Translations under genes and position numbers: made by a program | Notes under the pieces: generated by a model | What the model saw: only the letters and a program-made list of their open reading frames with translations | What the model was told of the DNA's origin: nothing | Databases searched by the model: none | Origin: Oligoflexia bacterium | GTDB taxonomy: Bacteria > Bdellovibrionota > Bdellovibrionia > JABDDW01 | Direction: 5' to 3' | Length of the DNA stretch: 64,000 nucleotides | Assembly: GCA_034439615.1 (NCBI GenBank) | Contig: JAWXAT010000008.1 | Coordinates: forward strand, 1-64,000 | In this document: piece after piece, positions 1 to 1,544 of the stretch | Numbering within the stretch: the stretch's first letter is position 1 | Layout of the letters: the number at the start of each line of letters is the position of its first letter

Positions 1-120
1 GGTTGGGTTGGGTATTGGAATTTGGATGGATACCAAAATCAAAGTAGTCCGCTAGCGGACTCAATTCAAGTTGCGTATCGCCGTCATTGTGTAAGCGCGC
101 TTATTGCTGGCCTGTCATAA
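1..120 (+). CDS. C-terminal end of a truncated unknown protein
   Basis: An open frame enters from the left edge and stops at TAA 118-120, giving 39 residues rich in Gly, Trp, Tyr and Asn at first. Residues 16-21 read SPLADS and come from a 16-bp palindrome (46-61). The same palindrome encodes the same residues, in the same frame, in the HNH protein downstream. The start and family lie outside the window, so no function can be given. It is possible that this frame is not coding, but the shared frame of the palindrome argues mildly that it is. Confidence 0.4.
   Translation, partial: GWVGYWNLDGYQNQSSPLADSIQVAYRRHCVSALIAGLS
46..61. repeat. 16-bp perfect palindrome, copy 1
   Basis: AGTCCGCTAGCGGACT is its own reverse complement. 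An identical copy lies at 1248-1263. Both copies are followed by C and sit in an open frame that reads Ser-Pro-Leu-Ala-Asp-Ser. The centre is CTAG, a tetranucleotide that is rare in many proteobacterial genomes. No further copies were seen in the window. Confidence 0.85.
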
Positions 121-527
121 AAAGCTAACATTAAAGTTGTCATCAACATCAGTCATCACAATCATAAAAGTCAATATAATCAAATCTCGTATTAAAACCA
201 GTAATCAATCATGCAATCAATCCTGACTTCAAAAATTATCTTCAATCCTGACTTCAAAAATTAATCGCAATTTAAGAAGTTTTCATTTGCCGATGGTTTT
301 TAAGAGCTATGCGTAAGTTGTTTGTATTTTAAAAATCACAAATAAACACATTTTGTAGATCGTCATAACCCCTGTAGTAAATGTTTTTAACAATTATAGG
401 GGGCGTATGAAATTAATTTTCTTCATTAAGTGATGAACGTTTAATCGAGAAAAATTCGATTTAAAAATCCATGGTAATGTTCTTTTACGTAAGTTGCGTG
501 CAAAACTTATCGAGATGAGAGAGCTAA
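121..527. other. Intergenic region, 407 bp, A+T-rich
   Basis: No gene was found here. It holds a two-copy 25-bp tandem repeat (217-263) and a 9-bp repeat CGTAAGTTG at 312-320 and 488-496. There is also a small inverted repeat, TAAGTT (490-495) with AACTTA (504-509), about 20 bp in front of the HNH gene. The last could be an operator or a weak mRNA hairpin. No convincing promoter was identified. Confidence 0.5.
217..263. repeat. Two-copy tandem repeat, 25-bp period
   Basis: A 22-bp sequence beginning TCAATCCTGACTTC occurs at 217-238 and again, identical, at 242-263, separated by TCT. Two copies only, in non-coding DNA. It looks like a local duplication; no spacer-repeat pattern suggests CRISPR. 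Confidence 0.8.
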
Positions 528-1544
528 ATGTTCCAAGAATCTGAAATTAGAAATCTTAAGAAAATGACAAATCACGATTTACTCCTTGAGGCAAAATCTT
601 CTGTGAAAGGAGAAACCAAGAAAACTCTGTGGGTGCTTCATGTTTTGCGTGAAATTGATAGGCGTAGGGCTTATTGCGAAGGTGCCTATCCGAGTTTATT
701 TGAATTTTGCGTAAGTGAATTAAATTACTCCAGAGGTGCTGCATACCGAAGAATTAATGCTATGAGATTATTGCGAGATCTACCAGAGCTCGAGGCAAAG
801 TTTGAAGAAGGGGTTTTTGAACTCACCACACTAGCAAATGCACAAAGTTACTTTCAAGCAGTGGCTAATATTAATACGCAACATTCTAACACACTCGAGC
901 AAAGTGCGACCTATAAAATTCAACGTTTTGATTTGAATATGAAAAGAGAAGTTTTGAAAACACTAGAATCAAAATCAACACAGGAGGGTCAAGAGTATCT
1001 CGCAAGTATTTCTCCTCAAGTATTATCGAAAAAAAGTAAAAAGAAGGGGCAAGTTGATATTGAAAACCATTTACCTTTGGAGGTCAGGGAAAAACTCAAG
1101 AAATTCAAAGGCCTTATAGCTTATAAAAATAATAATCTCAAAAACATCGACGTCCTTGAAGAAGCTCTGGATTTGGCCATCAAGCAAATGGAAAAACAAG
1201 GTAAACAAAAGCAAAGAAATCCGCAGCAATTAAGGCAAAATCCAAGCAGTCCGCTAGCGGACTCCACTCAAAACATTAAACCCACCACTACTTCTAAGGT
1301 TTCTAGAACCTTGAGAAGAGTGATTTGGCAAAGAGATCAAAATCAGTGCACATTTATTGATCCACTCACAAAAAATCGATGTCCTTCGCAGCACAGGCTT
1401 GAAATTGATCACATCACACCTAAAGCATTGGGCGGCGACAATGCTTTTGAAAATCTCAGACTTCTTTGTCGCAGCCACAACACTTTTCATGCAATTCAAG
1501 TTTTTGGACAAAACCGTATGGATCATTTTCTTGGTCATTCATAG
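528..1544 (+). CDS. HNH endonuclease-domain protein
   Basis: 338 residues. The N-terminal half (about 25-110) is a helical region of the type found in front of many HNH proteins, followed by a Lys/Gln-rich linker. The C-terminal HNH nuclease domain (about 262-325) has zinc cysteines C274, C285 and C314, the catalytic D294-H295 pair, N309 and H317. The start follows a GAGAG ribosome site. The linker contains SPLADS (241-246), encoded by a 16-bp palindrome also present upstream. HNH proteins of this build are often multicopy orphan nucleases or parts of mobile DNA; nothing nearby shows a restriction or defence partner. The nuclease fold is clear, the role is not. Confidence 0.8.
   Translation: MFQESEIRNLKKMTNHDLLLEAKSSVKGETKKTLWVLHVLREIDRRRAYCEGAYPSLFEFCVSELNYSRGAAYRRINAMRLLRDLPELEAKFEEGVFELTTLANAQSYFQAVANINTQHSNTLEQSATYKIQRFDLNMKREVLKTLESKSTQEGQEYLASISPQVLSKKSKKKGQVDIENHLPLEVREKLKKFKGLIAYKNNNLKNIDVLEEALDLAIKQMEKQGKQKQRNPQQLRQNPSSPLADSTQNIKPTTTSKVSRTLRRVIWQRDQNQCTFIDPLTKNRCPSQHRLEIDHITPKALGGDNAFENLRLLCRSHNTFHAIQVFGQNRMDHFLGHS
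1248..1263. repeat. 16-bp perfect palindrome, copy 2 (inside HNH gene)
   Basis: Identical to 46-61 and in the same reading frame (SPLADS). It lies in the linker between the helical N-terminal region and the HNH domain, where a short insertion would be tolerated. Confidence 0.85.

Follow-up and report, generated by a model that had tools for sequence, protein, structure and literature searches.

Palindromes upstream of and within DUF222-like/HNH endonuclease genes suggest a little-known kind of mobile gene labeled by a DNA site of its own

The window analyzed here is a 64,000-nucleotide stretch of an Oligoflexia bacterium genome (G000) that starts at base 1 of contig C8 (JAWXAT010000008.1). 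Close to its start, we identified an HNH endonuclease gene and two copies of a 16-bp palindrome, AGTCCGCTAGCGGACT. The features discussed are the following:

34 to 69, plus strand: 36-bp direct repeat that surrounds the palindrome, upstream copy, 32 of 36 bases identical to 1236 to 1271
46 to 61, no strand assigned: upstream palindrome AGTCCGCTAGCGGACT (P_up), from an exact sequence match
528 to 1544, plus strand: gene for a DUF222-like/HNH endonuclease of 338 amino acids, a member of a multicopy family (open reading frame; HNH, Pfam accession PF01844, E 2.4e-6; 26 protein matches in the genome, partial ones included)
1236 to 1271, plus strand: linker copy of the 36-bp direct repeat, from alignment with 34 to 69
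1248 to 1263, no strand assigned: palindrome inside the gene (P_link), located in the linker that precedes the HNH domain and centered between codon positions 2 and 3 (sequence match and reading frame)
1305 to 1487, plus strand: HNH nuclease domain region, about residues 260 to 320 (domain matches)

The two palindromes are exact copies, and both translate to Ser-Pro-Leu-Ala-Asp-Ser (SPLADS) in an open frame of identical phase, as the original prediction had stated. Its placement of the second copy in the linker of an HNH protein is likewise borne out by the Pfam match. The open frame across 46 to 61 is a candidate frame only, with just 39 codons and a start beyond the contig edge. This upstream copy lies 482 bp 5' of the HNH gene start and 45 bp from the beginning of the contig. 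The direct repeat that surrounds the copies exceeds the palindrome in length. No further copies of AGTCCGCTAGCGGACT were found in the window with up to 3 mismatches allowed. A single 16-bp palindrome is unremarkable here (four in the window versus a shuffle mean of 1.5); two identical ones are remarkable, and two AGTCCGCTAGCGGACT matches arose in 0 of 100 dinucleotide shuffles of the window.

The window protein matches PF01844 above the cut-off and matches HNH families only. All 24 aligned family members match HNH (Pfam, E up to 1), and 10 of the 24 match DUF222 (Pfam accession PF02720, E up to 1, best E 1.4e-7), the window protein giving no DUF222 match. Judged by these domain matches, the family appears to belong with or near the DUF222-HNH genes. 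Homologs were identified in 57 of the 98 class-level genomes searched and, by an alignment-based search of the phylum, in 132 of 290 genomes (E up to 1e-30). Neither of the two actinobacterial genomes examined contained a DUF222 gene, and the plasmids searched gave no match to the HNH protein. Viral contigs have only the HNH part in common with the window protein, and a phage origin was therefore rejected. Among the better hits to solved structures, HNH domains alone were matched; a single-sequence structure model (mean pLDDT 44) was set aside. Many HNH copies in this genome are found no more than about 1 kb from a contig end (C1, C8, C15, C34, C42, C44, C46, C49, C53 and C70), as expected if the copies are repeats that break the assembly.

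Exact copies of AGTCCGCTAGCGGACT occur three times in the 3.0-Mb genome (C8:46, C8:1248 and C46:20271), with another four copies at up to 3 mismatches. The palindrome is thus not confined to two copies; such confinement was an outcome that the original prediction had named as counting against it. A near copy at C15:1166 is an 18-bp palindrome in the linker of the closest paralog (57% identical), with outer bases altered on both sides. The exact 16-mer was absent from all 97 other relatives. The whole genome_contigs collection contains it in 19 stretches, of which a single Acidobacteria MAG accounts for six, and none of the 19 has an HNH relative nearby; a search of 10 such genomes for HNH relatives gave a weak match in one. 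An element limited to the exact 16-mer was therefore rejected. In the Acidobacteria MAG (336R_metabat_83), the six copies (L039, L044, L045, L048, L052 and L053) sit next to a second hairpin (GGCAGGCG..CGCCTGCC), and this repeat is REP-like and unrelated.

We also identified a ~200-bp dispersed repeat in G000 that carries the palindrome and a 41-bp hairpin (CCTATRGAGTTAGGC...GCCTAAC..CATAGG), with about 15 full or partial copies aligned (C32:1384-1582, L083, and about 14 other places). The palindrome copies at C46, C32 and C62 and the imperfect ones at C31 (two) and C17 are members of this repeat. The repeat is modular, with the palindrome as breakpoint: copy C31a ends there, and C46 and C17 begin there. 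Copy C14a is missing the palindrome, and a short direct repeat marks the junction. The start of copy C62 follows an HNH stop codon at a distance of about 20 bp. The idea of inserting palindromic elements thus finds a counterpart in this palindrome-bearing repeat but not in the exact 16-mer, which is not high-copy.

Different long perfect palindromes are found in the linkers of homologs, including ACTCCGACGTCGGAGT (G008), CTTCCGGCGCCGGAAG (G071) and CCCGCGCCGGCGCGGG (G081 and G001). We compiled a first set of 99 loci, drawn from the best matches listed (29 + 60 loci) plus 10 of the 26 own-genome matches, with partial own copies omitted. Four loci with ORFs under 250 codons (broken or cut) were dropped, leaving 95, of which 87 have at least 400 bp of upstream sequence. 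A hold-out set comprised 40 loci of other classes from genomes not used earlier; two short ones were dropped (38 genes of 13 genomes remaining) and one more was lost for short upstream sequence (37 remaining).

Perfect palindromes of at least 14 bp occur in the linker window of 14 of 95 first-set genes, versus 1 of 190 N-terminal and 2 of 95 C-terminal windows. The hold-out gave 12 of 38 genes, versus 2 of 76 N-terminal and 1 of 38 C-terminal windows. Codon-order shuffles yielded a mean of 1.1 (maximum 5 of 300) for the first set and 0.54 (maximum 4) for the hold-out, and shuffles within blocks of 8 or 17 codons likewise gave 10 to 20 times fewer palindromes than observed. Chance and codon usage do not account for the linker palindromes. 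A clear perfect linker palindrome is missing in most genes (81 of 95 and 26 of 38, respectively), so the palindrome is either not indispensable or subject to decay. Elsewhere in first-set ORFs, perfect palindromes of at least 14 bp are present in L019, L065 and L161.

The linker palindromes are locked to one codon phase. The center falls between codon positions 2 and 3 in 33 of 36 linker palindromes of at least 12 bp (both sets), the three exceptions lying more than 130 residues from the C-terminus, and palindromes with a TCCG arm have the same codon phase in 22 of 22 cases. Phase 2 is somewhat favored in hold-out codon shuffles. Because runs of NCG codons favor the observed phase to some degree, our co-variation test used sites picked only by an in-frame NCG.NCG.NCG pattern, with variable bases ignored. 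The +/-2 pair beside the center is complementary in 22 of 32 first-set sites (expected fraction 0.33) and in 13 of 13 hold-out sites (expected 0.38); as the sequences are related by descent and paralogs are not independent, p-values are too small (optimistic).

The residues encoded by the palindrome vary (SPLADS, TPTSEL, LPAPEV and SPAPARV), and a protein motif is therefore not what is kept. Conservation of SPLADS as protein, a further outcome that would have spoken against the DNA-level reading, did not occur; homologs keep a palindrome of changing sequence. The orthologs L206 and L207 retain 20 of 21 linker-palindrome bases, with the unpaired center alone changed, in a linker that is otherwise about 73% identical and is the fastest-changing stretch of the gene. 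Their upstream copy is unchanged across 18 bases. The residues encoded by this palindrome are also unchanged, so DNA and protein constraint are not separable from this one pair. Palindrome similarity is marginally correlated with N-terminal similarity (Mantel r 0.29, p about 0.05); the value for the HNH part is r 0.23 (p about 0.10). In G071, at least 9 of 19 perfect TCCGNCGNCGGA-type palindromes lie in or within 1.3 kb of HNH genes, and the TCCGNCGNCGGA-type pattern has 30 matches versus 0 for a reversed-pattern control.

For 22 of 87 first-set genes, contributed by 12 of 30 genomes, the linker unit is found again in the 650 bp that precede the same gene. In controls, the gene's own N-terminal window recurred in 0 of 87 cases, and the linker unit was found upstream of a different gene in 9 of 436 pairs within a genome and in 2 of 1044 pairs between genomes. 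The window of this local-match test was picked after the first set had been seen, and the hold-out was drawn for this reason. It gave 3 of 37 for cognate pairs, 10 of 132 within the same genome and 1 of 1200 for other genomes. Pairing in the hold-out is thus above that with other genomes, yet no more gene-specific than within-genome chance: the hold-out confirmed the palindromes and their phase, not gene-specific pairing. An earlier, weak cognate test based on odd-length palindromic 15-mers (at least 13; 10 of 87 cognate, 12 of 436 same genome, 88 of 7046 other) is superseded by the local-match test.

Among 23 units chosen by the upstream match alone, 15 have an arm of at least 5 bp (control mean 4.4, maximum 11 of 401); L123 and L170 are not palindromic. 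Within the stretches of at most 11 kb that were read for 20 genes, the unit mostly has just two copies, 0.74 to 1.3 kb apart. The usual layout is one copy upstream and one in the gene; a downstream copy is present in a minority, and a few genes have extra copies. In 4 of the 20, there is a linker copy only or the upstream copy is absent (L195, L208, L211 and L198, whose upstream copy is 1.5 kb away). At L122 (G090 C54), a 50-bp direct repeat with 48 identical bases is shared by the upstream region and the linker, far exceeding the imperfect palindrome.

Some same-genome paralogs share duplicated blocks. L204 and L205, located at different places in G033, match at 90% identity over a span that begins with the upstream palindrome and ends with the stop codon; their flanks are unrelated. 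In the G093 pair L162/L171, the palindrome has two upstream copies, and it is precisely at the palindrome that similarity sets in. Other same-genome paralog pairs have common blocks from about 200 to 370 bp upstream to near the stop codon, and the right edges of some blocks lie 40 to 90 bp beyond it. Some edges are away from palindrome or stop codon (+43 to +88 bp in G001, +62 in G069), and similarity between L140 and L145 continues about 50 bp past the palindrome. In L204/L205 and other same-genome pairs, one and the same unit thus recurs at separate places and is sharply bounded. Neither a target-site duplication nor an empty site was noticed. The duplicated HNH blocks have, from sequence comparison, the look of a mobile unit. 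By analogy with L204/L205 and L162/L171, in which the duplicated block starts at the upstream palindrome, P_up at 46 to 61 is probably the left terminus of the window's HNH unit.

These genes share a repeated anatomy, a codon-phase lock, co-varying palindrome arms and, in two paralog pairs, duplication of a unit with the palindrome at its left edge. Our leading explanation, which we hold tentatively, is that AGTCCGCTAGCGGACT is the DNA site of the nuclease whose gene holds it and that this gene, together with its upstream region, constitutes a small mobile unit. We infer that the protein binds and cuts the palindrome. Recognition by the encoded protein is the simplest account of a gene-linked site that keeps its symmetry while its sequence varies and that lies at the edge of duplicated blocks. 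The unit would consist of the palindrome at the left end, the 5' region, the DUF222-like N-terminal part, the palindrome-bearing linker and the HNH domain, with the right end at or close to the stop codon. The protein would bind and cut the palindrome as a dimer. Cut-and-copy repair between palindrome copies could then spread the unit and its dispersed derivatives and could also keep the upstream and linker copies alike. Such repair may sometimes drag flanking bases along, as in the 36 bp of the window gene and the 50 bp of L122. The suggestion that the palindrome might be a target or by-product of the HNH enzyme is strengthened by the other genomes with other palindromes, by gene specificity in the first set and by the left boundary of duplicates in two pairs, but gene specificity did not recur in the hold-out.

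The main rival is autoregulation, which we consider unlikely. The N-terminal part of the protein would bind operators upstream and in the linker, form a loop and repress its own gene; the linker would serve for this because the protein sequence it encodes can vary freely. Two copies about 0.74 to 1.3 kb apart, one near the 5' region and the other in the gene, suit such looping, as do the gene-specific sequences of the first set and the dyad symmetry with loops of 0 to 2 bases. Autoregulation alone leaves unexplained why the palindrome is the start of a duplicated block, as well as the dispersed copies far from HNH genes and the copied flanks of up to 50 bp. Autoregulation and mobility based on a self-encoded site are compatible and can coexist.

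Passive insertion is an improbable alternative. Here, each genome's own palindromic repeats, similar to REPs or MITEs, would land in intergenic DNA and in a permissive linker, with the HNH protein uninvolved. The linker is tolerant of change, and dispersed palindromic repeats are present in G000, G008 and G071. However, passive insertion does not account for the phase lock (33 of 36), as other phases are often stop-free, for the co-variation of the arms or for the concentration of G071 palindromes at or near HNH genes.

A role of the linker palindrome in attachment or crossover, either for another recombinase or for in-frame swaps of the HNH domain, is very improbable. The phase lock would keep swaps in frame, and phage phiRv1 integrates in the REP13E12 (DUF222-HNH) genes of mycobacteria. 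Against this, N-terminal and HNH identities of same-genome paralogs are mostly concordant, with few discordant pairs (L162/L175, 90% versus 63%), and no prophage junction at palindrome sites was seen in the loci read. Because both halves' identities mostly agree, domain swapping at the linker was rejected.

An mRNA hairpin that acts in pausing, attenuation or mRNA protection is less probable still. Any palindrome is able to fold, and the arms are kept in orthologs, but an RNA would not need a paired center and the center is usually complementary (loop of 0 to 2). Six 5'-region alignments were without clear conserved structure. A search for omega RNA or other conserved RNA identified no Rfam family besides one tRNA, and a conserved RNA in the 5' region was rejected on this result and on the lack of a convincing consensus structure. 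A promoter search of 21 loci with a strict TTGAC..TA pattern gave nothing.

Least probable by far is a codon-use by-product, whereby runs of NCG codons (Ser, Pro, Thr, Ala), which are two-thirds self-complementary and favor the observed phase, would generate the palindromes: half-sites are mostly NCG codons and the hold-out shuffles lean toward phase 2, but codon shuffles, including block-wise ones, fall far short of the observed number, complementary variable first bases are far more frequent than expected and the window's own core contains a CTA codon.

Among known systems, RAYT (TnpA-REP) is the nearest parallel to the nuclease unit with its own site. According to the available text of PMC2817692, RAYT is a nuclease gene tied to its own palindrome, which is dispersed in the genome and kept palindromic through sequence change. 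The HNH units likewise combine a nuclease gene with its own, also dispersed palindrome, whose symmetry outlasts its sequence. RAYTs are HUH tyrosine enzymes with inverted REPs on both sides, a GTRG head and high copy number. By contrast, the window protein matches HNH families only and not the HUH tyrosine transposase (Transposase_17), one palindrome lies inside the ORF, and inverted palindromes on both sides of the gene are not the usual layout. Copies are few here (three exact; tens at most for TCCGNCGNCGGA in 98 genomes) versus more than 100 per genome, and a GTRG head was not noticed in the HNH-unit palindromes. Since the HUH enzyme, two-sided palindromes and high copy number are lacking, the HNH units may work like RAYT/REP but are not members of that system.

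Rickettsia palindromic elements (RPE) are, in the available text of PMC2229807, palindromic DNA read in frame inside genes. RPEs measure 105 to 146 bp and are found in many unrelated genes. The present palindromes are also read in frame inside genes, but they are 14 to 22 bp long (with a 36-bp repeat in the window), occur in one gene family and are phase-locked. The original prediction's analogy to such insertion elements does not hold for the exact 16-mer, which is too rare, and the use of one codon phase in 33 of 36 cases makes random in-frame insertion unlikely. A resemblance to IscB (IS200-IS605) is limited to the HNH part (NCBIfam guided_IscB, E 1.1e-6, residues 260 to 319 of the window protein; 28 bits versus a cut-off of 175), rather than a full-length match with RuvC parts.

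DUF222-HNH genes are named as a repetitive category in mycobacteria in the available text of PMC10589994. Those genes (REP13E12, for example) are similar to the window gene in domain make-up and in being multicopy. Our literature searches, mostly of open papers, found no report of linker palindromes in DUF222-HNH genes among the papers listed. It is possible, if rather doubtful, that these genes represent a new kind of selfish gene: DUF222-like/HNH units, each with two copies of its own recognition palindrome (one at the left end, one phase-locked in the coding linker), with co-evolution of enzyme and palindrome, similarity of the two copies maintained by cut-and-copy repair, and dispersed repeats seeded by loose palindromes, in parallel to REP and RAYT but with an unrelated nuclease. 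Across the phylum, related genes hold different palindromes in the same place and frame, a pattern that suggests, at the level of sequence, mobile genes of a little-known kind in which each gene is labeled by a DNA site of its own.

Many bacteria have repeated DUF222-HNH genes, to which, to our knowledge, no function has been assigned. A coding-linker palindrome of varying sequence and constant symmetry and phase gives a concrete DNA-site prediction for each enzyme, and the substrate thus becomes directly testable. If the enzyme cuts the palindrome, bacterial genomes would have a second way, unrelated to the first, of acquiring REP-like dispersed palindromes.

Further repeats lie beside some HNH loci. 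In the same-family genome G001, a hairpin-like repeat (GGCGGCGGCCGT...CGGCCAGCCGCC) is found just upstream of the HNH units at L155, L137, L130, L142 and L127. In G071 (L179, L187 and L192:6004), a second palindrome, GGAACAcnnnGTTCC, precedes the first at a distance of five bases and forms a REP-like pair with it.
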